Of a DNA stretch of 64,000 bases, positions 1,372 through 60,016 are shown one piece after another. The stretch comes from Deltaproteobacteria bacterium (lineage in GTDB: Bacteria; Myxococcota_A; Polyangia; Polyangiales; JADJMO01). The notes under the pieces are model-generated. The model was not told the origin of the DNA. It saw only the letters and a program-made list of their open reading frames with translations, and ran no database searches. The stretch's first letter is position 1, and every line of letters begins with the position of its first letter. The stretch is taken from contig JACPFM010000063.1 of assembly GCA_016182965.1 (NCBI GenBank), forward strand, positions 1-64,000, in the 5' to 3' direction. The position numbers and the translations under genes were made by a program.

Positions 1372-1399
1372 CTGACGACTGACGACTGACGACTGACGA
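1372..1399 (-). repeat. Heptamer array, 4 x TCGTCAG, directly after a stop codon
   Basis: Four perfect tandem copies of CTGACGA on the plus strand, which read TCGTCAG on the coding strand of the kinase gene. The array begins on the base after the kinase stop codon at 1400-1402. It belongs to the family of 3'-end heptamer arrays seen at five other places in the window. Confidence 0.9.
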
Positions 1400-3007
1400 C
1401 TACTGCACGAGCGACGTGATCACGAACGCGATCACCGCGCCGCTCACCAGCGCGCCGACCAGGATGGCCGCGATGATCGCCGGCGCCGGGCGGCGGCCGA
1501 TCTTCGCCTCGGCGAGCTCGATGGCGGCGTGCGCGTGCTTCTCGAGCTCAGCGAGCGCGAGCTCGAGCCGGTTGCGCGGCTTGATGCGCATCGTCTCCTG
1601 ATGAAACGGGCTCATCGGAGACGCGCGCGGCACCGGCGGCGTCGGCTGCGCGATGGCGACGGGCGTGGGCGGGATCACCGCCGGCGCGGCGGCGAGCGTC
1701 GGCGCGTCGCCGTTCGGATCCGGATCCCAGGTCGGCTGCGCGGTCGGGAGCGGGGCGACGTTGGACGGCTCGAGCTCGATGTCACCCGATCCGAGCGCGT
1801 CGAAGCCGCCGGACATGTCGGCGCCGGGCACGCCCGCGCCGGCGACGGCGAAGGTGCCGACGACGCTGCCGTCGACCGGCGCGTTCTCGCCGCGAAGGTC
1901 GTGCCACGACGCCGCGGCCGGTGGGGCGACGTCGGCGGTGAACTCCTCGGTGCGCGCCCGCGCCGCGACGACCGGAGGCGGCGTGATCTTTCGCGCCGAC
2001 GCGCGCGGCGCCGACTTCGGCTGCGGCGGCAGCGACACGCGCGAGACCTCCTTCGGATCGATCTCGCGGATGTCGGCGACGAACGCGGCGAGCGTCGAGC
2101 CGGAGACCTCGGGCGCGCGGCGCGCCAGCGCCTTCTCGAACGACTCGACCAGGTCCTCGGCGCTCGACGGCCTGCGGTCCGGCTTGCGCGCGAGCATCTT
2201 CATCACGATGTCGGCGTACTCGGGGTCGATCTCGGGCCGGACGTCGTTCGGCCGCTGCACCTTGAGCGCGCGGATCGCCTCGATCGTCTCCATCTCGGTC
2301 GTGCGGCGGAACAGGCGCTGCCCGGTGAACAGCTCCCACGCGACGATGCCGAGCGAGAACAGATCGGCGCGGATGTCCATCTTGGCGTGCGGATCGAGCT
2401 GCTCGGGCGCGAGGTAGCTCGCCTTGCCCTTGACGTGCCCCGCGCGCGTCATCGTCGCCTCGTCGACGCCCTTGGCGATGCCGAAGTCGAGCACCTTCAC
2501 CACGCCCGAGTCGGTCACGAACAGGTTGTGCGGCGAGACGTCGCGGTGCATGAGGCCCATCGGCACGCCGCGCTCGTCGACCGCGACGTGCGCCGCGTGC
2601 AGCCCGCGCGCGGCGCCCAGGATGATGAACGCCGCGAGGTCCTGCGGGACCCCGCCGTGCTTCTGCGCACGGAGGAAGATCTCCCGGGCGGTGAACCCCT
2701 GGAGGTACTCCATGACCAGGTACGGCTGGCCGTCGTCCTCGCCGACGCCCTCGAGCTCGACGACGTTCGGGTGGTGGATCAGCGAGGCCAGCCGGGCCTC
2801 GCGGAGGAACAACCGCGCGAACTCGGGCTGGTGCGCGAGGTGCGCTCGAGACCGCTTGACGACGACGGGCGAGCCGCCGCGCGCCTGATCGCGGGCGAGC
2901 AGGACCTCGGCCATGCCTCCTTCACCGATGCGGCGCTCGATCGCGTACCGACCGCCGACGAGCCGTCCCACTCCCGAAGAGTATCCCTCGCACCCGGGGC
3001 TGGTCAT
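1400..3007 (-). CDS. Membrane-anchored Ser/Thr protein kinase
   Basis: Hanks-type protein kinase that should phosphorylate Ser/Thr residues on partner proteins from the cytoplasmic face of the inner membrane. The kinase domain covers about residues 20-290. Visible motifs are the glycine loop GEGGMAEV (28-35), the ATP-anchoring Lys51 in VVVKR, the catalytic loop HRDVSPHN (154-161), DFG (174-176) and YLAPEQL. HRDVSPxN in place of HRDLKPEN is common in myxobacterial kinases. A Pro/Ala-rich linker of about 200 residues leads to one C-terminal membrane helix (about 508-530) with almost no periplasmic tail. It is divergent from the FHA-sigma54 activator with only 47 bp between starts, which suggests that regulator as a substrate. 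The ATG at 3007 lacks a clear ribosome site; a GTG at 2971, preceded by GAGGGA, is an alternative start. Confidence 0.93.
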   Translation of the reverse strand: MTSPGCEGYSSGVGRLVGGRYAIERRIGEGGMAEVLLARDQARGGSPVVVKRSRAHLAHQPEFARLFLREARLASLIHHPNVVELEGVGEDDGQPYLVMEYLQGFTAREIFLRAQKHGGVPQDLAAFIILGAARGLHAAHVAVDERGVPMGLMHRDVSPHNLFVTDSGVVKVLDFGIAKGVDEATMTRAGHVKGKASYLAPEQLDPHAKMDIRADLFSLGIVAWELFTGQRLFRRTTEMETIEAIRALKVQRPNDVRPEIDPEYADIVMKMLARKPDRRPSSAEDLVESFEKALARRAPEVSGSTLAAFVADIREIDPKEVSRVSLPPQPKSAPRASARKITPPPVVAARARTEEFTADVAPPAAASWHDLRGENAPVDGSVVGTFAVAGAGVPGADMSGGFDALGSGDIELEPSNVAPLPTAQPTWDPDPNGDAPTLAAAPAVIPPTPVAIAQPTPPVPRASPMSPFHQETMRIKPRNRLELALAELEKHAHAAIELAEAKIGRRPAPAIIAAILVGALVSGAVIAFVITSLVQ

Positions 3008-22156: not shown

Positions 22157-22255
22157 GGCGGCAGTCTAGCGACCGTATTCGTCGCTGAGGGGTGAAGGCG
22201 CGCAAATCGAGCGAAGGTGCGAGCCTTGGGATGCGTACCGATCTACGCTCGCGTG

Positions 22256-25200
22256 ATGTCCCCCCTCGCTCGCGCTGCGGGCGGCGTCCTGCTCGCCGGG
22301 CTCTCGGCGTGCTCGCCGGGCGCGAGCGAGCCGGCGCGCGAGGTGCCGGGCGGGGCGGAGCAGGTCGAGATCGGGTTCCGACGCGTCGCCGATCGCTGGG
22401 TGCACCGCTCGACCGAGGTGTCGCGCGACGGAGTTGCGGTGGTCACGCGCGGCGGCGCGCCGTGCCGATTCCGGACGGTCTCGATCGCCGGTGCGAGCGT
22501 CGCGCCGAACGGCCCGACCCGGATCGGCGCTCGGCTGGTGTTCGAGCGCGGCGGCGGCGTGCGCGAGGTGATTCGTCCCCACGCGCTCGGGGTCGAGCAG
22601 CAGTGGGAGCTCGCGGAAGGACCGACCGGCGCTTTCGAGATCGTCGTCGGCGTCGAGGGCTCGTTCCGCGGCGACGACGGCGAGCGCGCGCGCTTCGGGT
22701 GCGCCGACGGCGGCGAGGCCTTCTACGGCGCGGCCACGCTGGTCGACGCGCGTGGCCAGCGAACGAGGCTCTCGCGCGAGGTGCGCGACGGACGCATCGC
22801 CATTCGAATATCGGCGGATGTTCTCGCACGGGCGACGTTCCCTGCAGTGGTCGATCCGATCGTGGGCGCGGAGTTTCCGGTGGAGGCGCCCGTCGGGTTG
22901 GCGGTCGGCCCCTCCTACGAAGGTCGGTTCGCGGTCCGCGCGGCGCCGGACCACTGGCTCGTCGGGTGGACCTTCTCGGACGGGCTGTGGCTCGGCCGCA
23001 TCCGAGCGGATGGCTCCATTGCGTGGCCAGTAGGCGTGCGGGTCGGCCCGGCCTATCAGCGCGCGATGCCGGCGTTCTCGTTCGATGGAACGAACTGGCT
23101 GGTCGCGTGGGCCCCCGTTTCCGGCGCCGTCGCCACGCGCTTCGGGCTCGACGGGACGGCGCTCGACGGCACACCGATCGCGCTCGGCTGGCCCGGTGGC
23201 GACGCGCTGGCGGCGTGGGACGGCACCCGTCACGTCGTCGTCGACGCCTCCTCCGGCAGAGGAGCCTGCGTGGCGCCGAGTGGCACGATCTCGGCGACGT
23301 TCGAGCCGGCATCGGGCGACGTACGCTGGAGCGACCTGGCCTGCCGATCTTCGGGCAGCTGCATGATGGCCGGGAAGGACGCCGTCACCGGCGCACTCGT
23401 CGTGCGGCAGATCGTCGGCGGGGTGGCCGCGGCGTCGAACATCGTGGTGCACGGTTCGCCGAGGTGGGACCCGAGCCGGATCGCCTGGACCGGCGCGAAC
23501 TGGGCGATATCGTTCGTGGATTCGAGCGGCCAGGTCCTCGTCCGGCGCCTCGCGTCGGACGGCACGGTTCTCGGGACGACCTCCTTGGGAACGGGTTGGG
23601 TGCCTGACGTGTCGTGCAGTGCGGATGCTTGTCGCGTGACCTTCGACGATGGAGCGACCGGCGTGCTCACGACACGTCTCGACGCGTCGGGCGCGGTCTT
23701 GGACCCGATCACCAAGCTCTTCCCCATGAGCACCGTTGACACCAAGATCGGGTGCGGCGCATCGCGCTGTCTTGCGGTGCAGAAGCGGTATCCGCTCCGC
23801 GCTCTGCGCACCGAGGGCGCGGCGACGCTGGACGCCGTGCCGTTCACCGTCGGTTGGATTCCGAGCCTGCAGTGGGAGCCGACCGCAGCTGCCTCCGGCG
23901 CAGGCGGGCTGGTCGTATGGACCGACGAGCGAGGGGACCCCCCGGCCTGGGTTCCGCCGTCGCCGATCTTCGGCACGCGCGTCTCGCCGACGGGGCTCCT
24001 CGACTCCGCGGCGACCCTGCTCGTCGACGGGTCGGCCTCGCAGCTTCGCGCGGCGTGGGATGGCACCGACTGGCTCCTCGCCTACATCAACGGGGGCAAC
24101 GCCGAGTTGGCGCGGTTCGGCACGACGCTGACGAAGAAGACCACTCAGCCTCTGCTCGGGCGAACGCCACACGATCTCGTTTGCAACGCGAGCGCCTGTC
24201 TTTACGCGTGGAGGGATGGGGGGGACCTGTTCTACAGGGCGTTCGGACAGGTGCTCCCGAAGGGCGCTGCACCTTCGGCGAGGATGTCGTTGCTCGGTCC
24301 ACCGCCCGAGGAGACCGCGACCGAGCACCTCGGAGCGTTCGCGGTCGGCGCCGGTCCGGACGGGTTTCTCTGCGTCCACCGACGCGGCAGCGCGCTGGTC
24401 GCAACGCGAATCGGCAACGACGGCACCATCTTGGACAAGACCCCGACGCCGGTCGGCTCGGTCGGCACCGATGCCACCGCCGGCGTCGCGAACGTCGCGG
24501 GAACGTGGGTCATCGCGTGGAACGATCGCACGCGCGTCTCTGCGATACGGCTGTCGTCCACCGGTCTGTTGCTCGACGCAACTCCGCTCCAGGTCACCTC
24601 CACGGTGGCGCAACGAGGGATTGGCGTCGTTCCTGCCGAGGACGGGCACACCGCGCTGGTCACCTGGGATGCGCGCGCGGCCTTCGTGGCGTCGGATGGT
24701 CGCGTCCTCGATCCCGGCGGATTCGCCCTCGACGCTCAATGGGCGGGGCGCGGCGCTGCGATCGCACCAGGCAAGGTGCTCGTGCCCTACGTGCGTTATG
24801 GTGGATTCGTCGGCAGTACGAGGGCCGTCGCGCGCGTCGTCGAATCCGGAGCGATGGACGGCTCACCATGCACGACCGGTACATCGTGTGCGTCTCGCAT
24901 CTGCAGCGACGGCCATTGCTGCGATGGCGTGTGCACCGAGGCATGTTCGACCTGCGCGACAGGCAAGTGCGTGTCGGTGGTGTCTGCCGATGACGCCGAC
25001 AGCTGCACGGGCACGCTCACCTGCAGCGCGACGGGGGCGTGCAAGTCGAAGCTCGGTACGGCGTGCGCCTCGGCGGCCGAGTGCGCGAGCGGCCACTGCG
25101 CCGACAGCGTGTGCTGCGATGCCGTGTGCACCGGCGCATGTTCGACCTGCGCGACAGGCAAGTGCATGTCGGTGGTGTCTGCCGATGACGCCGACACCTG

Positions 25201-26413
25201 CACGGGCACGCTCACCTGCAGCGCGACGGGGGCGTGCAAGTCGAAGCTCGGTGCGGCGTGCGCCTCGGCGGCCGAGTGCGCGAGCGGCCACTGCGCCGAC
25301 GGCGTCTGTTGCGCCACCGCGTGCGGCCCGTGCGGCGTGTGCAACGTCACGCCCGGCGCATGCACCGCGCGCGCCGCCGGCACGCTGTCGTCGTGCGCGC
25401 CCTTCTTGTGCGATGGATCGGCCATCACCTGCGCCACGACCTGCGGCGACGACGCCGGGTGCGCGGCCGACGCCTTCTGCGCGTCCGACAAGACGTGCAA
25501 GGCGCGTAAGCCGAACGGCGCTGCGTGCAACCCTGACGATTGTGCGAGCGGCGACTGCCGCAACTGCGCGAGCGGCCACTGCGTCGCAGGCGTGTGCTGC
25601 GACTCGGCGTGCGATGGTCCCTGCGGCATCTGCAACGAGACCGGCTCGGTCGGATCGTGCATCGCTCGCCCGAAGGGCACCGCCGCCGATTGTGGAGCCT
25701 TCCTCTGCGCCGGCGCGTCGACGTCGTGTCCGACCTCTTGCACGACGAGCGCCGACTGCGTCGCCGGCCACTGGTGCGACGCCTCGAAGTGCGTGCCGCG
25801 CGCTGCGCGCGGCGGCGCGTGCAAGGTCGACGACGCGTGCCTCGCGGGCATCGACGGCGCGGGTCACTGCGTCGACGGCCTGTGCTGCGACACGCCGTGC
25901 AACGGACTTTGCGAGGCATGCGATGGCATCGGCGCGGTCGGCACTTGCACGCCGGTGGTCGGCGACCCGCACGGCAAGCGCGCGCCTTGCCCGACCGATG
26001 TGTCCGAGCCGATCTGCGGGCGACGTACGTGCGACGGTGTCTCGCGCGCCTCGTGCGAGAAGCTGCCTGGCTCGGAGACGGCGTGCGGCTCCGCGAGCGT
26101 CTGCTCGCACGGAAGGTGCCTCGAAGCCGACAGCGGCGTCTCGGACGGCGGGGCGGAGCCGTCATCCGAGACCGGAGTGGCCGATGCGGGCTCCGACACC
26201 GGCACGATCGAAGCTGATGCTTCCGATGCCGGAGTGACGGTCCCCGAAGGACCGCCCGCCGATGAAGGCACGGGCTGCGGTTGCCGCGTCGGCGCACGTC
26301 CTCGCGGTCACCTCGCGCTGATCGCGCTCCTCGCAGTCGTCGTTCGCCGCCGTCGTCCGAGGTCGCCCGGCAGGAATTTCATTTCGGCGCCGGCGTCGCC
26401 TCCACCGCGGTGA
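22256..26413 (+). CDS. Large Cys-rich lipoprotein with MYXO-CTERM-like tail
   Basis: Surface protein of 1,385 residues. The ATG at 22256 starts a lipoprotein signal with lipobox LSAC. Residues about 40-870 contain repeated short strands of the type W(x)GTxWLV(A)W and LDATPLQV spaced 40-60 residues apart, which suggests a beta-propeller-like fold. From about 880 onward come roughly nine Cys-rich EGF/disulfide modules (GHCxDGVCCxxxCxGxCxxC), two of which are near-identical. The end shows an acidic/Asp-Ala linker, then GCGCR, a hydrophobic helix (LALIALLAVVV) and Arg cluster: the MYXO-CTERM layout recognised by the myxobacterial sorting system. A 16-residue tail beyond the Arg cluster overlaps the convergent collagen-like gene by 35 bp. 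Confidence 0.88.
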   Translation: MSPLARAAGGVLLAGLSACSPGASEPAREVPGGAEQVEIGFRRVADRWVHRSTEVSRDGVAVVTRGGAPCRFRTVSIAGASVAPNGPTRIGARLVFERGGGVREVIRPHALGVEQQWELAEGPTGAFEIVVGVEGSFRGDDGERARFGCADGGEAFYGAATLVDARGQRTRLSREVRDGRIAIRISADVLARATFPAVVDPIVGAEFPVEAPVGLAVGPSYEGRFAVRAAPDHWLVGWTFSDGLWLGRIRADGSIAWPVGVRVGPAYQRAMPAFSFDGTNWLVAWAPVSGAVATRFGLDGTALDGTPIALGWPGGDALAAWDGTRHVVVDASSGRGACVAPSGTISATFEPASGDVRWSDLACRSSGSCMMAGKDAVTGALVVRQIVGGVAAASNIVVHGSPRWDPSRIAWTGANWAISFVDSSGQVLVRRLASDGTVLGTTSLGTGWVPDVSCSADACRVTFDDGATGVLTTRLDASGAVLDPITKLFPMSTVDTKIGCGASRCLAVQKRYPLRALRTEGAATLDAVPFTVGWIPSLQWEPTAAASGAGGLVVWTDERGDPPAWVPPSPIFGTRVSPTGLLDSAATLLVDGSASQLRAAWDGTDWLLAYINGGNAELARFGTTLTKKTTQPLLGRTPHDLVCNASACLYAWRDGGDLFYRAFGQVLPKGAAPSARMSLLGPPPEETATEHLGAFAVGAGPDGFLCVHRRGSALVATRIGNDGTILDKTPTPVGSVGTDATAGVANVAGTWVIAWNDRTRVSAIRLSSTGLLLDATPLQVTSTVAQRGIGVVPAEDGHTALVTWDARAAFVASDGRVLDPGGFALDAQWAGRGAAIAPGKVLVPYVRYGGFVGSTRAVARVVESGAMDGSPCTTGTSCASRICSDGHCCDGVCTEACSTCATGKCVSVVSADDADSCTGTLTCSATGACKSKLGTACASAAECASGHCADSVCCDAVCTGACSTCATGKCMSVVSADDADTCTGTLTCSATGACKSKLGAACASAAECASGHCADGVCCATACGPCGVCNVTPGACTARAAGTLSSCAPFLCDGSAITCATTCGDDAGCAADAFCASDKTCKARKPNGAACNPDDCASGDCRNCASGHCVAGVCCDSACDGPCGICNETGSVGSCIARPKGTAADCGAFLCAGASTSCPTSCTTSADCVAGHWCDASKCVPRAARGGACKVDDACLAGIDGAGHCVDGLCCDTPCNGLCEACDGIGAVGTCTPVVGDPHGKRAPCPTDVSEPICGRRTCDGVSRASCEKLPGSETACGSASVCSHGRCLEADSGVSDGGAEPSSETGVADAGSDTGTIEADASDAGVTVPEGPPADEGTGCGCRVGARPRGHLALIALLAVVVRRRRPRSPGRNFISAPASPPPR
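24941..25310 (+). repeat. 195-bp tandem duplication encoding a Cys-rich module
   Basis: The copy beginning at 24941 recurs at 25136, giving a 195-bp (65-codon) period. Over about 170 bp only around half a dozen bases differ, mostly in the last 15 bp, so the duplication is recent or kept similar by gene conversion. It preserves the frame and adds one complete disulfide module. Confidence 0.92.
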
Positions 26414-28634: not shown

Positions 28635-28662
28635 CTGACGACTGAAGACTGAAGACTGATGA
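28635..28662 (-). repeat. Degenerate heptamer array, 4 units, 3' of tamB
   Basis: Plus strand: CTGACGA, CTGAAGA, CTGAAGA, CTGATGA in tandem. On the tamB coding strand it reads TCATCAG, TCTTCAG, TCTTCAG, TCGTCAG, starting 57 bases after the tamB stop. The remainder of the 203-bp gap to the OmpA gene start shows nothing else. Confidence 0.85.
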
Positions 28663-39548: not shown

Positions 39549-39600
39549 TCGGCGGTGGCAGTCGTGGGCCGGCGACGCCGCGTCGGCTCGCGCGACCTGG

Positions 39601-39668
39601 GTCGAAGGTCGAAGGTCGAAGGTCGAAGCTGTCGGGCTTCGTTTGACCTTCGACCTTCGACGTTCGAC
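39601..39668. terminator. Bidirectional heptamer hairpin between convergent genes
   Basis: The left arm is four copies of GTCGAAG (39601-39628). The right arm is three copies of CTTCGAC-type units (39648-39668, the last GTTCGAC). They are complementary over at least 20 bp with a 19-base loop. Each arm reads as tandem TCGAAGG on the coding strand of the gene it follows, so readthrough from either side yields the same stem. No U tract is present. The rest of 39549-39775 shows nothing else. Confidence 0.8.
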
Positions 39669-39775: not shown

Positions 39776-42700
39776 TCAACCGATCGTGCCGCACTTGTTC
39801 GGACCGGCCGCGCCGCAGGACTTCGGCGCCACGCAGGTGCCGCAGTCGAGCAGACCGCCGCAGCCGTCGGGGTACGAGCCGCACTCGGCGCCCGCGGCCT
39901 CGCAGGTCGTCTTCGTGCAGGTGCCGCCCGGACAGGCCGGGCAGGTGAGGACGCCGCCGCAGCCGTCGCCCTGGGGACCGCAGCGACCGCCGCAGGTCAG
40001 CGGGGTGCACGTCGGCACGCCGCCGTCGCACGCGCCGCAATCCTGCGTACCGCCGCAGCCGTCGCCGGACATGCCGCAGCTGACGCCCATCTCGGCGCAC
40101 GTCTTCTTGGTGCACGTGCTGTAGCCGCACTTGCCGGTGACGCCGAGACCGCCGCAGGTCGCCGGCGGCGTGCAGGTGCCGCAGTTGAGCACGGTGCCGC
40201 AGCCGTCGGCCCAGCTGCCGCACTCGTACCCGTAGTCGCTGCACTTCTTCGGAGTGCAGGTCGCGCCGCCGCACTTGCCCGGGACGCCGCCGCCGCCGCA
40301 GGTGCCGGTGGTGCAGGTGCCGCAGGTCAGGATGCCGCCGCAGCCGTTGGACCACGAGCCGCACTCGACGCCGAGCGCCGCGCAGGTGGTCGGGGTGCAC
40401 GAGGTGCCGGCGCACTTGCCGCCGGTGCCGCAGACCATGCCCGAGGGGCAGGTGCCGCAGGTGAGGGTGCCGCCGCAGCCGTCGGGCGCCGAGCCGCACT
40501 CGATGCCCTGTTCGGCGCACGTGCGCTTGGTGCACGTGGGCGGAGGCGGCGGGAGCTTCTCGTCGCAGACGCGCGAGCCGAGGTCGAAGATCATGAACTC
40601 GAGCGCCTTCTGCTGCGCCGTGAGCGTCGTACCCGTCCCGCAGCGCCCGGGGAAGGCGCTGGCGGAGCTGTCGTTCGACGGGCTCTTGGTCGAGTCGACG
40701 TGGATGTCGGTGACGACGACGCGCCCGCACTGCGAGTCCGCGGCGACGCCGACCGGCGCGTTGAAGCTGAAGTACTGGACCGCCGACGGCACGGTGACCG
40801 GCGGCTTGTTCACGTCCTTCGCGCTGTACGCGGTGATCCAGTTGGTGGTGCGCGTCGCGTCGACCGCGTCGATGCTGTGCTGCGCCTGCTGAATCGACAG
40901 GATGCCCGGCGTGGTGGACGCGCCGACGTTGACCAGCCACTTCGAGAGCGCGAGGCCCTTGGGGAAGCCGGTGAGCACGGTCCCGTTGGTCGGGCTCGCG
41001 AGGTCGGCGGCGAGGTTCCACGTCGCGAGGCTCGGCCACGGCGTCGGGCCGTCCTTCACCCACGCGAAGTGGTAGTGGCCGGCGAACACGCGACCGCCCA
41101 TGCCGGCGTAGTCGAACATGTTCTTGTAGAAGCCGGTCTTCTCGTTGCCGAACTCGCCGCCGTAGCCGCCCTCGCAGTCGAGGAGCACGGCGTCGTAGTT
41201 CGCGAGGTTGGCCACGCTGTTCCACAGCGAGGACTTCGCCGCCGGCAGCGTCGCCGAGTACCCGGTGCGGCTGATCTTGTTGGTGCCGCACACCTTCGTC
41301 TTGATGACGCACTTGCCCTTGTTCGGGCCGCTCGACTCGCAGACCGAGCCCGACGGGCAGGTCGTCGCCGGGCACGTGTAGGTGCCGGTGTAGATGCCCG
41401 TCGTGACCAGATCGCAGAAGCCCGTGTACATGTGCACGCGGCCGCTGTCGCTCGGCGCGACGAACTCGCTGTCGTCGATGCCGATCTTGCGGAGCAGGCA
41501 CTCGAGGTTGTCCTGCGAGCCGGTCGAGATCGCGAACTGCGGGATGTCGCCCTCGGAGCGCTTCTTCGGGAAGCTCGTCTTGAGCTTGTCGATCGGCGTG
41601 TCCATGCACGCGCGCGTGGTGATCGTCACCTGGCGGCGCCACTTGCCCGTCTGGATGACCAGCGGGATGTCGGTGCCGACCGGCACGTTGGTGAGCTTGA
41701 ACGAGCCCGTCTCGTCGGTGACCGTCTGCACCAGCGGATAGCCGGAGAGCGCGGACGCGCACTTGTCGCAGGTCGCGCCCGTGGACAGTGCCGTCGGCGT
41801 GCCGTTCGGGATGTAGACGAAGACGTTGTAGAGCGGGTTGACGCCGGCAGGATCGTAGACCTTGCCGCTGATCGAGCTGGTGAGCCCGCCGCTGCAGGTG
41901 ACCTGCTTGCACTCGAGGTTCACGCAGCTGGTGCCGCCGCCGCCGCCGCACTTGCTCGGCACGCCGCCGCCGCCGCAGATCGCGGGCGACGTGCAGCCGC
42001 CGCAGTCGGCGGTGAGGCCGCCGCAGCCGTCGGAGACCTGACCGCAGGTGCCCGTCGGGTAGTCGGCGCAGGTCTTCTTCACGCACGGCGGCGGACCGCC
42101 GCACACGCTCGGGACGCCGGCGCCGCCGCAGGTCTGCCCGGACGGGCAGGTGCCGCAGTTGACCGTGAGGCCGCCGCAGCCGTCGGAGACCTGGCCGCAG
42201 TTGGCACCGAGCTCGGTGCAGGTCTTCGGCGTGCAGGGCGGGGGCGCGCCGCCGCACTTGCTGGCGACGCCGCCACCGCCGCAGATGTTGCCGCCGGTGC
42301 AGGTGCCGCAGCTCGCCGTCAGGCCGCCGCAGCCGTCGGACACCTGGCCGCAGTCGGCGCCCCAGTCGGCGCAGGTCTTCTTGACGCACGGCGAGGTGCT
42401 GGTGCCGCAGACGTTCGGCTTGCCGCCGCCGCCGCAGGTGCCCGTCGTGCAGCTTCCGCAGTTGACGAGGCCGCCGCAGCCATCGGCGACCGGGCCGCAG
42501 TTGTAGGCCATCTCGGTGCACGTCTTCGGCGTGCACGGGGGCTTCGGCGGCGTGCCGCACTTGTTCGGCGTGACGGCGCCGCAGGTGTCGGTGCCGGTGC
42601 AGGTGCCGCAGTCGATCAGGTTGCCGCAGCCGTCGCCCTGCTTGCCGCAGTTCGCATCGAGCTCGATGCACGTCTTGGGCTTGCAGCCGGTGTCTGCGAC

Positions 42701-43033
42701 GCCGCACTTGCTCGGGCCACCGCCGCCGCAGATCTCGCCGGCCTTCGGGCAGGTGGTCGGTCCGCAGTCGACGAGACCGCCGCAGCCGTCGGCCACCGGG
42801 CCGCAGTCGGCGTCGAGCTCGGCGCACGTCTTCGGCTTGCAACTCGATCCATCGAGGTTGAAGCTCGAGTCTTCCTCGGGGACGACGGACGTCTCGCCGC
42901 CACCGCCGCCGGAGGTGTCGACGACGACGCTGCCGTCGGTCGTCGGAAGGACTCCGTCGACGGCGTCCTCACCACCCGCACAACCCCAGGCCCAGAGGGC
43001 CAATGCAAAAATACCAATACGACCGACACGCAT
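39776..43033 (-). CDS. Secreted Cys-rich repeat protein, 12 DGCGG modules
   Basis: A 1,085-residue exported protein starting MRVGRIGIFALALWAWGC (signal, possible lipidation). Six modules of about 45 residues with the pattern C-x-P-K-T-C-x9-C-G-x4-DGCGG-x4-CGxC-x5-CGGGG-x4-KCG precede a unique central region. Six more follow, twelve in all. The central part (about 345-760) includes a carboxypeptidase-regulatory-like strand set (SGKVYDPAGVNPLYNVFVYI, VTDETGSFKLTNVPVG) and a segment with LLDCEGGYGGE and GRVFAGHYHFAWV of unknown fold. Proteins with this central region flanked by Cys modules are typical of Polyangia; their role is unknown. It is convergent with the SUMF1-like gene across a heptamer hairpin. 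Confidence 0.88.
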   Translation of the reverse strand: MRVGRIGIFALALWAWGCAGGEDAVDGVLPTTDGSVVVDTSGGGGGETSVVPEEDSSFNLDGSSCKPKTCAELDADCGPVADGCGGLVDCGPTTCPKAGEICGGGGPSKCGVADTGCKPKTCIELDANCGKQGDGCGNLIDCGTCTGTDTCGAVTPNKCGTPPKPPCTPKTCTEMAYNCGPVADGCGGLVNCGSCTTGTCGGGGKPNVCGTSTSPCVKKTCADWGADCGQVSDGCGGLTASCGTCTGGNICGGGGVASKCGGAPPPCTPKTCTELGANCGQVSDGCGGLTVNCGTCPSGQTCGGAGVPSVCGGPPPCVKKTCADYPTGTCGQVSDGCGGLTADCGGCTSPAICGGGGVPSKCGGGGGTSCVNLECKQVTCSGGLTSSISGKVYDPAGVNPLYNVFVYIPNGTPTALSTGATCDKCASALSGYPLVQTVTDETGSFKLTNVPVGTDIPLVIQTGKWRRQVTITTRACMDTPIDKLKTSFPKKRSEGDIPQFAISTGSQDNLECLLRKIGIDDSEFVAPSDSGRVHMYTGFCDLVTTGIYTGTYTCPATTCPSGSVCESSGPNKGKCVIKTKVCGTNKISRTGYSATLPAAKSSLWNSVANLANYDAVLLDCEGGYGGEFGNEKTGFYKNMFDYAGMGGRVFAGHYHFAWVKDGPTPWPSLATWNLAADLASPTNGTVLTGFPKGLALSKWLVNVGASTTPGILSIQQAQHSIDAVDATRTTNWITAYSAKDVNKPPVTVPSAVQYFSFNAPVGVAADSQCGRVVVTDIHVDSTKSPSNDSSASAFPGRCGTGTTLTAQQKALEFMIFDLGSRVCDEKLPPPPPTCTKRTCAEQGIECGSAPDGCGGTLTCGTCPSGMVCGTGGKCAGTSCTPTTCAALGVECGSWSNGCGGILTCGTCTTGTCGGGGVPGKCGGATCTPKKCSDYGYECGSWADGCGTVLNCGTCTPPATCGGLGVTGKCGYSTCTKKTCAEMGVSCGMSGDGCGGTQDCGACDGGVPTCTPLTCGGRCGPQGDGCGGVLTCPACPGGTCTKTTCEAAGAECGSYPDGCGGLLDCGTCVAPKSCGAAGPNKCGTIG

Positions 43034-44704: not shown

Positions 44705-46123
44705 ATGCGCCGCCTCGCCCGCCTGCACCTGCCTGCGATCGCCCTCGCGACCTTGGCCTCGCTCGCGATGGCGAGCCGCAGCGCGCGGGCCGACGCGGGC
44801 CCCGACGCCGGCTCCGACGCCATCACGCCGCCCGCGCCGACCACCGACGTCGTGAACGCGACGGCGTGCAGCAAGCTCGACAAACGCTGTCAGCGGGGCG
44901 CGTTCACCGTTTCCAAGAGCGTGACGATGGCCGGCGACTTCGACTTCGACACCGGCTGGCTGCCGAAGGACTCGGCGGTGCAGGTGCGCCTGCTCGCGTA
45001 CCTGCACGGCCGCACGCGCGTCGACATGAGCGGCAACCTCGACGCGACGTGGCCCGACGCGATCCGCCTGCGCCCCGACGGCATCAACGGCACCGGCGTG
45101 CTCGCGATCGACGACGGCCTCGTCGTCAAGGCGATGGGGAAGTTCAAGGTCACCGTCGCCGGCAAGGAGTTCGCGTGGACGGGCGATCTACCCGGCATCC
45201 CCGGGGTCGATCTCGCCTCGAAGACGACCGTCATCTTCGATCCGTGGGCCTGGAAGGGCGGCGTCGGCACGCCCGAGGCGTCGGGCAAGACCAAGCAGAT
45301 CGAGCTCGCGAAGGTCCCGCTCACCGACGCGATCATCCCCATCCCCGGCATCGAGGGCGGCTTCCAGCTCGAGGGGCAGGCGGAGTTCGCGGCGCGCTAC
45401 GCGTCGCTCCGCATCGCGTTCGACGAGCTCCTCTCGAAGGGATCGATCGTCGACGTCGACTCGACCCGCCCGTTCACCAGCGCCCTGTTCTCGTCGTCGC
45501 CCTCGCTCGAGACGACGCTCTTCGTGCACGGCGAGATGACGCGGCAGACGACCCTCCACTTCATTCCAGGGTTCTACTTCGAGATCCTCGGCAAGAAGTT
45601 CGATCTCGAGCTCGTCGACGTGCCGGTGCCGATCCCGGCGTCGACGAAGGACTGGGACTTCGCCCCGGTGACGGTGCACTTCCCGCTGCCGCGCATCGAG
45701 GCCAAGCCGAACCCCATCGATCTCGGCGACATTCCGGTCGGCAAGGCCACGTCGGTGCTCGTCACCGTCTTCGATACCGGCGAGGCCGAGCTCGCCGTCG
45801 ACGCGTCCGATCCGAACGGCACGCTCGACATCGCGACGACCCACCTCGACATCGGCGGCGGGAGCTCCGACTCGGTGCGCGCCACGCTCACGCCGAAGGA
45901 CCTCGGTCCCATCGAGACGACGCTCGTCCTCTCGTCCAACGATCCGGCGGCGCCCAAGCTGTCGATCAAGGTGCGCGCGAACGGCAGCGCCGACGCGCCG
46001 GCCGGCGACGACGCCGCGACCGAGGCCGCCGGCGGCTGCGGCTGCCGCACCGGCGCTTCGGCCGGATCGCCTGCATGGCTCGCGGTCGCCGCGCTCGCTC
46101 TGCTGGCGCGACGGCGCAGGTGA
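44705..46123 (+). CDS. MYXO-CTERM exported protein with ASPM-like/choice-of-anchor domain
   Basis: A 472-residue exported protein. The signal peptide (LPAIALATLASLAMA) is cut before an Asp/Ala-rich stretch. The middle is a beta-rich region without known family (about 60-330). Residues about 335-440 resemble an abnormal-spindle/DUF1573-type immunoglobulin fold (PNPIDLGDIPVGKATSVLVT, TLVLSSNDPAAPKLSIKVRA). The end is a clear MYXO-CTERM signal: GGCGCR, then a hydrophobic helix (AWLAVAALALLA) and a terminal RRRR. It should be sorted to the cell surface by the myxobacterial system. The stop codon is followed directly by TCGTCAG heptamers and then TCTAGAG heptamers. Confidence 0.9.
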   Translation: MRRLARLHLPAIALATLASLAMASRSARADAGPDAGSDAITPPAPTTDVVNATACSKLDKRCQRGAFTVSKSVTMAGDFDFDTGWLPKDSAVQVRLLAYLHGRTRVDMSGNLDATWPDAIRLRPDGINGTGVLAIDDGLVVKAMGKFKVTVAGKEFAWTGDLPGIPGVDLASKTTVIFDPWAWKGGVGTPEASGKTKQIELAKVPLTDAIIPIPGIEGGFQLEGQAEFAARYASLRIAFDELLSKGSIVDVDSTRPFTSALFSSSPSLETTLFVHGEMTRQTTLHFIPGFYFEILGKKFDLELVDVPVPIPASTKDWDFAPVTVHFPLPRIEAKPNPIDLGDIPVGKATSVLVTVFDTGEAELAVDASDPNGTLDIATTHLDIGGGSSDSVRATLTPKDLGPIETTLVLSSNDPAAPKLSIKVRANGSADAPAGDDAATEAAGGCGCRTGASAGSPAWLAVAALALLARRRR

Positions 46124-46330
46124 GTCGTCAGTCGTCAGGCCGGTCTTGGGTCCAGAGTCTAGAGTCTAGAGTCTAGAGTCCGAGACGAGGCTCGCTCTCG
46201 CTCTCGGACGCGCAGACGAGACGCGATCAAGGTACGCATCGCTGCTGCCGACCCGAACGGGTTGAACTCGGACTCTGCCTTGGACTCAAGACTCTAGACT
46301 CTAGACTCTAGACTCTAGACTCTAGACCCA
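46124..46330. repeat. Inverted heptamer arrays between convergent genes
   Basis: After the MYXO-CTERM stop come two TCGTCAG-type units (46124-46138), then three AGAGTCT units plus AGAGTCC (46154-46181). The opposite arm has five AGACTCT units and one degenerate unit (46289-46330). The arms are complementary over about 28 bp with a loop near 107 bp. On the coding strand of each flanking gene the units read TCTAGAG. The loop contains no gene. Confidence 0.9.
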
Positions 46331-57047: not shown

Positions 57048-58148
57048 ATGTCCAACGTCCTGATCACCGGTGCGACCGGGTTCCTCGGCCGCGAGATCGT
57101 GCGGCACGTGCTCGAGCGCGAGCCCGAGACGCCGCTCACGTTGCTCATCCGCGGCAAGGACGACGCCGACGCGCAGCGCCGCGGCAAGACGCTCGTCGAC
57201 GAGCTGATCGGTGCCGATCGGTCGTCGCGCGCGAGGGTCGCCATCGCGCGCGGCGACATCGAGAAGGATCGCCTCGGCATGGACGCCGCCGCGTGGGATC
57301 GGGTCGTCGCGACCACGTCGGCGGTCATCCACGGCGCCGCGTCGGTCAGCTTCACGCTGCCGATCGACGAGGCGCGCAACGTCAACCTCGAGGGCACCCG
57401 CCGCATCCTCGATCTGGCGAAGGCCGCGAAGGCGCGCGTGGACTACGTGGGCACCGCGTACGTCGCCGGCGATCGCCGCGGCGTGGCCTACGAGCACGAG
57501 CTCGACCTCGGGCAGCCGTTCCGCAACACCTACGAGCAGACGAAGATGGAGGCCGAGGCGCTGGTGCGCTCGCGGTTCGGCGAGCAGCCGATCGCCATCT
57601 TCCGCCCGAGCATCATCGTCGGCGACTCGCGCACCGGTCGCACCGCGAGCTTCAAGGTCCTCTACTGGCCGCTGAAGATCTACGCGCAAGGCTTCGCCAG
57701 GTTCGTGCCCGGGCGCCGCTCGACGCCCGTCGACGTGGTGCCGAGCGACTACGTGGTCGACGCGATCATGGCCATCCGCAAGCGCGAAGACAGCCTCGGT
57801 CGCGCGTACCACCTCGCGGCCGGCCTGGAACGCGACAGCACCATCGGCGAGCTCACCGATCTCGCGAGCGAGTTCTTCGGCGTGCGCAAGCCGCTCTTCG
57901 TCAACCCCGACCTGGTGCTCGGCTGGTTCCGGCCGCTCGTCGATCGGTTCGCCTGGGGCAAGTTCAAGCACCGCATGATCACCGCGCGCGTGTACACGCC
58001 TTACCTCAACCTGGCGCTGCGCTACGACACCTCGCAAGCGCGCGCGGCGCTCGCGGGCACGGGCATCGAGGTGCCGCCGGTGCGCGACTACTTCACCACG
58101 CTATTTCGCTATTGCCTCGACACCGACTGGGGCAAGCGCCCGGCTTGA
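57048..58148 (+). CDS. NAD(P)-dependent extended SDR, thioester-reductase-like
   Basis: A 366-residue Rossmann enzyme of the extended short-chain dehydrogenase/male-sterility NAD-binding type. The cofactor loop is GATGFLG (8-14) and the active site Tyr162-xxx-Lys166 lies in NTYEQTKMEAE. The region FRPSIIVGDSRTGRT is typical of the fatty-acyl-CoA/thioester reductase branch. The C-terminal 120 residues are the lid domain and carry aromatic residues (WFRPLVDRFAWGKFKH). The substrate is unknown; a lipid or thioester substrate is only suggested by the family. Three TCGTCAG-type heptamers start on the base after its stop codon. Confidence 0.88.
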   Translation: MSNVLITGATGFLGREIVRHVLEREPETPLTLLIRGKDDADAQRRGKTLVDELIGADRSSRARVAIARGDIEKDRLGMDAAAWDRVVATTSAVIHGAASVSFTLPIDEARNVNLEGTRRILDLAKAAKARVDYVGTAYVAGDRRGVAYEHELDLGQPFRNTYEQTKMEAEALVRSRFGEQPIAIFRPSIIVGDSRTGRTASFKVLYWPLKIYAQGFARFVPGRRSTPVDVVPSDYVVDAIMAIRKREDSLGRAYHLAAGLERDSTIGELTDLASEFFGVRKPLFVNPDLVLGWFRPLVDRFAWGKFKHRMITARVYTPYLNLALRYDTSQARAALAGTGIEVPPVRDYFTTLFRYCLDTDWGKRPA

Positions 58149-58390
58149 AGTCGTTAGTCGTCAGTCGTCAGCACGGCCGCGGACGTCTATGGGTCTAGAG
58201 TCTAGAGTCTAGAGTCTAGAGTGGGTTTGCACCTGAACTCCGTCCGACGCGAGGTGCGGTCTCGAGAGAGCACTCCGGTTTCAGGAGCCCGCGTCAGGTT
58301 CCCGCTAGCCGTGTTCCACGGCGAGAGGGCACCTCGCGAGTGTCTCGGGTGCTCTAGACTCTAGACCGGCTGACGCTCGACGACCGACGG
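58149..58390. repeat. Paired heptamer arrays between convergent genes
   Basis: The left side has TCGTTAG/TCGTCAG units (58149-58171), then four GTCTAGA units (58193-58220). The right side has two TCTAGAC units (58353-58366), then three degenerate units CTGACGC, TCGACGA, CCGACGG (58370-58390) abutting the stop of the membrane gene. Both flanks therefore show the order stop, TCGTCAG-type, TCTAGAG-type on their own coding strands. The TCTAGAG arms are complementary with a loop of about 130 bp. No gene lies inside. Confidence 0.9.
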
Positions 58391-59479
58391 CTACTGCCGG
58401 CCCCGCGCCGAGGGTGCCTCGGCCTCGCGCGCCGCCCGCGACAGCGTGAGCGCAGCGAGCGCCGCGATGACCAGCTCGAGACCGCGCAGCGGCGTGTCGA
58501 CCTGTCCGCGCGACAGCACCGCGAGGCCCATCGCGCAGAGCAGCGGGAAGGCGCCGCGCGTCGCGCTCGCGATGGCGGCCAGGGGCAGGGTGACCGACGC
58601 CACCTCGGTGAACACCAACGGCAACAGCGACACGCGCACGTGCCGCTCCACCAGGGCGATCTCGTTCGTCGCCGCGTCGGCCGACACCCAGCTCGGCAGC
58701 GGACCGCTCCCCTGCACCCGCAGTGACAACGCGCGCTGCAGGGCGTCGCGCGCGGTGCCGGCCGACGAGAGGCTCGCTCCGAGCGTCCACGTCGTCAGCC
58801 CGAAGGCGATCGCGAGCGCGACGAACGCGGCCACCGCGCCGCGCGCGCCGGGGCGGTGCACCAGGTAGATGACCAGGAACACCTGCGCGAGGACCTCGAA
58901 CGCCAGCGCCGCCGACGCGGCGACCTGCCCCCACGCGTACGCGTTGGGCGTGCCGCGTTTCAGCGCGTTCCATGCGACGCCCCACGCGATGACGCGCAGG
59001 AGCGCGGCGAACGCGAGCAGCCCGAGCTGGATGCCGAGCGCGCGCGTCTCGGTCGGCGCGACCGCCTCGACGGTCGCCGCGACCAGCACCGCGAAGGCGC
59101 CCGCGAAGAGCACCACCAGCTGCGCCGGCTCGAGGACGCGCCCGATGGCGACGGCGACGAAGGTGAACACGAGGCCGGCGCCGAAGGTGGACACCAGCCG
59201 CGTCGACAGCGAGGTGCGCGGGTTGCCGACGACCGCGAGCACCAGGACCATCAGCGCGAGCATCCCGAGCATCGCGGCCGAGACCGAGGTCAGGTTCGCC
59301 CACTTGCGCCAGCGCGCGACCTGCGCCTCGGCGCCGACGCCGACCCAGCCGGGCGCGAGCAGGCCGCCGACGACGTTGGCGGCGATCGCCAGCAGCGCGA
59401 ACGGCAGCAGCACGCCGATGGCGAACGACTCGCGCGGAGCCGAGACCGGGATCTCTCCCCGGTCGCTTCCGGGGCTCAC
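58391..59479 (-). CDS. Polytopic membrane protein of unknown function
   Basis: A 362-residue protein from a GTG start 10 bases after the YbjN-like gene stop. Eight to nine hydrophobic helices are visible: FAIGVLLPFALLAIAANVVG, MLGMLALMVLVLAVVG, FGAGLVFTFVAVAIG, LVVLFAGAFAVLVAA, LGLLAFAALLRVIA, VLAQVFLVIYLV and VAAFVALAIAFGLTTW, among others. The sequence is Ala/Leu/Val-rich without charged residues conserved in a transporter-like way. No family is recognised. It shares strand and near-zero spacing with the YbjN-like gene, so the two are likely coexpressed. Exact start is uncertain: another GTG lies 11 codons downstream. Confidence 0.78.
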   Translation of the reverse strand: MSPGSDRGEIPVSAPRESFAIGVLLPFALLAIAANVVGGLLAPGWVGVGAEAQVARWRKWANLTSVSAAMLGMLALMVLVLAVVGNPRTSLSTRLVSTFGAGLVFTFVAVAIGRVLEPAQLVVLFAGAFAVLVAATVEAVAPTETRALGIQLGLLAFAALLRVIAWGVAWNALKRGTPNAYAWGQVAASAALAFEVLAQVFLVIYLVHRPGARGAVAAFVALAIAFGLTTWTLGASLSSAGTARDALQRALSLRVQGSGPLPSWVSADAATNEIALVERHVRVSLLPLVFTEVASVTLPLAAIASATRGAFPLLCAMGLAVLSRGQVDTPLRGLELVIAALAALTLSRAAREAEAPSARGRQ

Positions 59480-59988: not shown

Positions 59989-60016
59989 AGGTCGAGGGTC
60001 GAGGGTCGAAGGTCAA
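59989..60016. repeat. Heptamer array in a divergent promoter region, 4 units
   Basis: AGGTCGA, GGGTCGA, GGGTCGA, AGGTCAA in tandem on the plus strand, 11 bases upstream of the YbjN-like start and 136 bases before fbp. This is the only array of the family that lies 5' of both neighbours. Confidence 0.85.

Follow-up and report, generated by a model that had tools for sequence, protein, structure and literature searches.

An SDR-like gene and a membrane-protein gene converge on a short gap filled with heptamer arrays at 58149-58390 of the window, by which we mean the whole 64,000-nucleotide stretch analyzed (G000:C124:1-64000, where G000 is the source genome, a 9.59-Mb draft in 226 contigs, 91% complete). 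The arrays belong to two families, A and B, and are arranged as arms around a central interior, as follows:

58149-58171, plus strand: 3-unit arm of family A (AGTCGTC, the same unit as TCGTCAG), directly adjoining the SDR-like gene's TGA
58191-58222, plus strand: family B arm (AGTCTAG, the same unit as TCTAGAG), 4 units plus GTC
58222-58341, plus strand: interior, made of positions 1-49 and 158-230 of a 245-bp MITE-like repeat (a shortened copy)
58352-58367, minus strand: partner family B arm, about 2 units (2.1 TCTAGAG copies)
58368-58390, minus strand: decayed family A partner arm with 3 in-phase GTC, abutting the stop of the membrane-protein gene and fold-paired with the left A arm

The SDR-like gene ends at 58148 (TGA at 58146-58148), and directly 3' of it, at 58149-58171, lies AGTCGTTAGTCGTCAGTCGTCAG, which amounts to two to three TCGTCAG units and is followed by (GTCTAGA)4 at 58193-58222. 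On the minus strand, past the stop at 58391, CCGTCGGTCGTCGAGCGTCAGCC consists of decayed TCGTCAG-type units with GTC in phase at 7-base steps; TCTAGAG lies beyond it in only 2.1 copies (58352-58366). The initial annotation had seen here a mirror-symmetric layout of two heptamer types, a description that suits the left side well (TCGTCAG x2-3, then TCTAGAG x4) and the right side weakly, with TCTAGAG present twice and TCGTCAG decayed. Folding 58149-58390 as RNA (-119.6 kcal/mol, z -4.0) brings the two outer arms together and likewise the two inner ones. An Rfam search of the locus returned no match, and a terminator scan of it gave 0 matches.

Elsewhere in the window there are further arrays, including those of a third family, C:

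46123-46138, plus strand: 2-unit arm of family A that shares bases with the TGA of a MYXO-CTERM gene
46154-46180, plus strand: family B arm, with one variant unit just upstream
46289-46327, minus strand: partner family B arm; an alanine racemase gene stops 21 bp away
1372-1401, minus strand: family A array that shares bases with the TAG of a minus-strand gene (1400-2971)
39600-39628, plus strand: family C array (GGTCGAA), plus arm of an inverted pair
39645-39661, minus strand: family C array, minus arm of the pair begun at 39600
28640-28659, minus strand: variant heptad array of AGTCTTC type
59990-60009, plus strand: variant heptad array of GGTCGAG type, in a divergent gap

At the 46124 locus, the two-part order reported after the MYXO-CTERM gene is present on that side, as TCGTCAG x2 and then TCTAGAG x4, and fails on the mirror side, which has TCTAGAG x6 alone. 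Longer repeats are also found in the window. The predicted gene 39776-43003 (minus strand) contains long tandem repeats of about 141 and 153 bp at 40124-40507 and 41943-42500, and a 195-bp unit occurs twice (95% match) at 24917-25313, within the predicted gene 22253-26413 (plus strand).

Most counts below come from an unbiased sample of 850,022 bp (850 kb), made of stretches of eight contigs (C29, C200, C36, C96, C12, C117, C183, and the window) that were picked by contig, independent of arrays. A second, enriched set of 898,825 bp was fetched around TCTAGAG arrays and overlaps part of the first. Calling an array required a seed of 14 perfect bases, which leaves out very short or decayed ones; genes were placed with a simple ORF caller based on codon usage, so that distances to stops are firmer than those to starts, which are approximate. 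The 850 kb hold 169 heptamer arrays of the three families (A, AGTCGTC; B, AGTCTAG; C, GGTCGAA), 164 of them intergenic with respect to the caller's genes. They lie at 74 array-bearing loci, or 87 per Mb, which extrapolates to about 830 loci per genome. Across all 9.59 Mb, with overlapping matches counted, a 20-base TCTAGAG pattern matches 223 times (112+111) and a 20-base TCGTCAG pattern 867 times (440+427), compared with 0 genome-wide matches for the reversed-pattern control of either; the abundance of both arrays is far above chance. Of perfect arrays of at least 3 copies, a 400-kb sample had 41 with period 7 and 13 with period 6; each remaining period between 4 and 14 gave 0-5.

Once the units are written in RGTCNNN phase, as above, each family shows GTC every 7 bases. 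Among internal units, GTC was changed at 6 of 1236 sites versus 61 of 1648 for the other four positions, a 7.6-fold lower rate (p 9e-10); units nearer another family were dropped from this count, and the picture is unaltered when all units are counted. A motif-free scan of the 850 kb, covering 64 trinucleotides at periods 5-9, ranked GTC/GAC at period 7 first: runs of at least 4 numbered 177 in intergenic and 13 in genic sequence, and no other period exceeded an intergenic count of 15. The three families obey one orientation rule in this phase, which supports GTC as the relevant core. The number of units is also restricted. Arrays of four units make up 37 of 76 in family A and 20 of 46 in family C, and 38 of 47 in family B have either four (18) or five (20). 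Arrays of two and three units are scarcer than those of four, within an overall range of 2-23.

These properties bear on two ways in which the arrays might arise or be kept. Ordinary replication slippage would make them seven-base microsatellites, and the variation in unit number (2-23) and the existence of long arrays, also in other Myxococcota, are what one might expect of it. We consider this origin quite improbable, given that unit number peaks at four or five rather than falling from two, that a single GTC code spans three families, that insertions bring new interior sequence, and that the arms described below are matched and fixed in their inward orientation. One can also picture the arrays being kept as binding sites for a protein that reads GTC every 7 bases, in chromosome organization or RNA binding. 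Both the lower rate of change in GTC and the preference for four units speak for such sites, which we nonetheless think quite unlikely: there is no candidate protein, the arrays are absent in close relatives, and single sites leave the inversion and the matched arms unexplained.

Among gaps with several arrays, that inversion is nearly without exception. Of 74 array-bearing gaps, 50 hold at least two arrays, and the GTC strands face strictly inward in 49 of the 50 (shuffle mean 11.9, maximum 23; 2000 shuffles). At 42 of the 50, the two outermost arms belong to one family (shuffle mean 18.8, maximum 32; 5000 shuffles). The other 24 of the 74 regions have arrays of a single orientation. Orientation also follows the neighboring genes. 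For stops with an array within 60 bp, the closest one reads GTC-sense 81 times out of 86 and antisense 5 times; for starts with an array within 100 bp, the closest one is antisense 25 times out of 29 and sense 4 times. Of 111 convergent gaps 32 contain arrays, as do 38 of the 321 tandem gaps and 4 of the 125 divergent ones. Where arms are paired in a tandem gap (25 cases), they lie closer to the stop than to the start, at median distances of 14 and 32 bp, respectively (Wilcoxon p 0.008). Fourteen of the 110 sense arrays share bases with the stop codon, and another 26 start 0-10 bp past it; the stop is TAG in 20 of 68 array-adjoining genes versus 90 of 572 others.

Whole elements fold with a median z of -7.0 versus shuffles (63 elements). 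For their inner parts the median z is -1.1 (63), near the -0.7 of 18 array-free convergent gaps, and thus the structure of an element comes mainly from its arms. Beyond family identity, no match between the two arms of a locus was seen. Their lengths are uncorrelated (rho 0.21, n=16; rho -0.13, n=60), variants are shared in 14 of 48 cases versus 13.7 when permuted, with no compensatory variation between arms, and the arm flanks pair no better than swapped flanks. Locus-by-locus pairing of arms therefore found no support, and chance-level variant sharing together with unpaired flanks gives no direct support for joint insertion of both arms.

It is tempting to see in these elements selected 3'-end hairpins that end or insulate transcription between convergent genes or protect mRNA 3' ends. 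Such a role is possible and fits position, orientation, and folding: the array nearest the stop is nearly always sense, frequency declines from convergent through tandem to divergent gaps, whole elements fold well above shuffles, and the families of the arms match. However, a T-tract beyond the 3' arm was found at 0 of 100 sides, and this, together with the 0 scan matches at 58149-58390, led us to reject an intrinsic terminator. The arrays are also absent from the portions sampled of genomes from the same genus and family, in which orthologues of the convergent pair flanking 58149-58390 are 16-36 bp apart, they occur in divergent gaps and inside a gene as well, and arms show no compensatory variation. 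Overall, we regard selection for a 3'-end function as a doubtful explanation.

Where families are mixed, their order is not random. Reading away from the stop, the 850 kb give AC 8 times, AB 4 times, and ACC, AAAC, and BC once each, with 0 reversed, so that all mixed cases run A, then B, then C; the recurring, mirror-symmetric, stop-adjacent layout first proposed was in this respect borne out. The annotation had gone further, suggesting that TCGTCAG(n)-gap-TCTAGAG(n) is a composite functional signal and that the ordered pair should be sought elsewhere in the genome. The pair does recur after stops (4 cases in the unbiased 850 kb, never reversed), whereas in the TCTAGAG-enriched set the 19 A/B adjacencies include 14 with family A outside and 5 with the reverse arrangement. 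In addition, only 4 of the 32 stops with a sense family B array in the 850 kb have a family A array preceding it, and at 28 it is absent. These counts mostly refute a single two-part signal, which we now find scarcely credible. Nesting of one element in another is a simpler account of the A-B order than a required two-part signal, and a better description is of a single palindromic element type with inward-facing arms, built from three interchangeable heptamer families and sometimes nested.

Gaps were also compared with those of relatives. The gap at 58149-58390 is 242 bp long, versus 36 and 16 bp for the orthologous gaps of relatives; for other array-bearing gaps the lengths are 426 versus 85, 226 versus 59, 356 versus 111, 258 versus 121, 184 versus -1, and 47 versus -10 bp, so that 7 of 7 are longer in the array-bearing genome. 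Array-free orthologous gaps are mostly similar in length, with few exceptions in both directions. The short gaps of the relatives contain no arrays, and 20-mers of families A and B are found 0 times in the same-genus genome G001. The source genome is the only one of 377 in a phylum sample with exact family A 20-mers, and the only one of 56 in a search of relatives with exact family B 20-mers. Genomes of the same genus and family showed no such arrays in the stretches sampled, and GTC period-7 runs of at least 4 number 1 in 358 kb of G001 and 0 in 283 kb of G003, from another genus of the family.

One coding sequence bears the same elements:

L049:3000-6791 (G000:C36:43000-46791), minus strand: dnaE2-like gene with three in-frame heptad insertions absent from the G001 orthologue
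Residues ~335-360 and 994-1021 of its product: family B hairpins
Residues ~528-547: family A arrays

This error-prone polymerase gene (NF004225, 1170 bits) is 76% identical to the G001 orthologue, and both arms are clear in two of its three insertions, all in this single gene. It holds 8 of the 13 genic GTC-heptad runs of the 850 kb. The frame stays open because the free positions vary (for example, TCCAGAG for TCTAGAG) with GTC kept. By these comparisons, the element loci are insertions relative to related species; mobility of the elements would rest on comparison with divergent relatives, among which no empty site was resolved to the base.

That leaves the question of what kind of element this is. 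The inverted heptad arms would serve as the terminal inverted repeats of a MITE. However, a target-site duplication of at least 4 directly flanking bases was found at 0 of 42 elements and no consensus emerged for a conserved core beside the arrays, and a classical MITE was rejected on both counts. The interior is highly variable (13-456 bp), and 17 of 50 interiors match elsewhere in the genome, nearly always in intergenic sequence. Five of the six Y1 transposase hit loci were inspected and had no arrays nearby, and relatives without arrays also carry Y1 genes (1-4 hits); a RAYT/REPIN link thus received no support, and no candidate spreading enzyme was identified among the Y1 loci inspected.

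The 245-bp repeat, which has 13-base ends TGGCTTTGCACCA, is distinct from the heptad arms:

58222-58341: window copy of the 245-bp MITE-like repeat
L180:9306-9550: full copy

The source genome has 75 matches to it; G001 has 4, all weak, and three other genomes have none. The window copy lacks an internal palindrome of ~108 bp found in other copies and resembles a copy that had yet to receive a nested insertion. At L097:3640-4070, L069:3560-4060, and G000:C12:2540-3010, the repeat lies between B arms, abutting or cut by the minus-strand B arm, which suggests that heptad arms and the MITE-like repeat share insertion sites. Other repeats in the interiors also fit a neutral view, with gene ends collecting several kinds of repeat.

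Taken as a whole, our reading is that these are short palindromic elements, tolerated at gene ends and spread by a machinery that reads GTC heptads, and we give it an even chance of being right. In this reading, each element is an inverted pair of arms, each arm consisting of about four tandem RGTCNNN heptamers with the GTC strand always inward, an arrangement that lets either strand fold as a long hairpin. The elements would have spread in this lineage through trans-acting machinery recognizing GTC heptads; there would be three families with one signature because it is GTC heptads that this machinery would recognize. They may insert or survive mainly where they are least harmful, after stop codons and away from promoters, and they may nest inside one another. 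Most would be near-neutral or selfish, yet unavoidably add a hairpin to mRNA 3' ends. With moderate confidence, we weigh spread and tolerance above function.

Heptamers of similar habit have been described elsewhere. According to Rehm et al. (2015, PMC4692102), GGGAATC and GGGGA(C/T)T heptamers of Xanthomonas and Nostoc are dispersed, intergenic, and mostly of four units, form convergent inverted pairs (70 and 75 cases), and lie on the coding strand up to 50 bp past stops and on the noncoding strand before starts; their units are G-rich and form G-quadruplexes in vitro, to which the four-unit preference is linked, and 83% of the Xcc heptamer repeats are also in Xac. The present arrays are alike in noncoding dispersal, four units, convergent pairs, and sense placement after stops and antisense before starts. 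They differ in having no G-tracts, a GTC core, and three nestable families, in being commonest between convergent genes, and in being absent from a same-genus genome. Read circularly on either strand, units A, B, and C contain no run of three G; since AGTCGTC, AGTCTAG, and GGTCGAA have no G-tracts, G-quadruplexes cannot be the general cause of the four-unit architecture. In the study by MacGregor (2015, PMC4679880), TAACTGA direct repeats are intergenic and patchy in Beggiatoaceae, Cyanobacteria, and Bacteroidetes; in the main genome examined there, most are placed immediately 5' of start codons, and a single indirect repeat is reported. They resemble the present arrays as patchy intergenic heptamers with a unit in RGTYNNN phase (AGTTATC) and differ in lying near starts, not as inverted pairs at stops. 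Rehm et al. (2015, PMC4692102) also mention Calothrix heptanucleotides.

The element described here can also be set beside other repeat systems. In heterocystous cyanobacteria, the STRR heptanucleotides are tandem heptamers with several families per genome and are like the present arrays in placing multiple families of tandem heptamers in one genome. Rickettsia palindromic elements are palindromic insertions tolerated in frame within genes and are not known to have heptad arms; the present elements share the in-frame palindromic insertions, here in one dnaE2-like gene, and unlike them are mainly intergenic. REPINs and BIMEs, with RAYT, are inverted pairs of short repeats, intergenic and present in many copies. 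The present elements are similar in all three respects, but no linked Y1 transposase and no REP-type single palindrome were found for them.

A broader possibility, speculative and rather unlikely in our estimation, is that one machinery, patchy across phyla, builds or moves convergent heptad elements by recognizing GTY at 7-base steps about four times, with the other positions free, so that the heptamers of Xanthomonas, Nostoc, Beggiatoa, and the myxobacterium would be dialects. If so, G-quadruplex formation would be an accident of one dialect. Intergenic heptamers have been noted in several bacteria without explanation, and the most detailed proposal in the literature consulted here links the preference for four units to G-quadruplexes (PMC4692102). 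With G-quadruplexes removed as the general cause, a measurable feature, the GTC heptad code, takes their place. Two questions can then be put to the test: what it is that reads GTC at seven-base intervals, and whether the elements move at all.

Among the matches listed in searches of open-licence literature, we found no report of heptamer arrays in Myxococcota. A pattern of five RGTYNNN units matches 72 of 377 Myxococcota genomes, and the reversed control also matches in many. In four of the genomes with the pattern, RGTY is present in 26 of 35 arrays; with the 9 non-RGTY arrays left out, orientation is 4 sense to 2 anti near stops and 8 anti to 2 sense near starts, and adjacent pairs are '+-' twice and '++' twice. 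In view of the high reversed control and the weaker orientation in these four genomes, we do not claim the RGTY rule for other Myxococcota. Further afield, TCTAGAG arrays occur in a few genomes of Dehalococcoidia, other Chloroflexi, and Bacteroidota (12 stretches, L051-L062). Other heptamers beside those arrays contain RGTY in 9 of 10 cases (6 of 7 distinct) versus 22% expected over all heptamer classes, and several differ from TCTAGAG by one base. Multifamily heptamer systems thus recur in these unrelated phyla.
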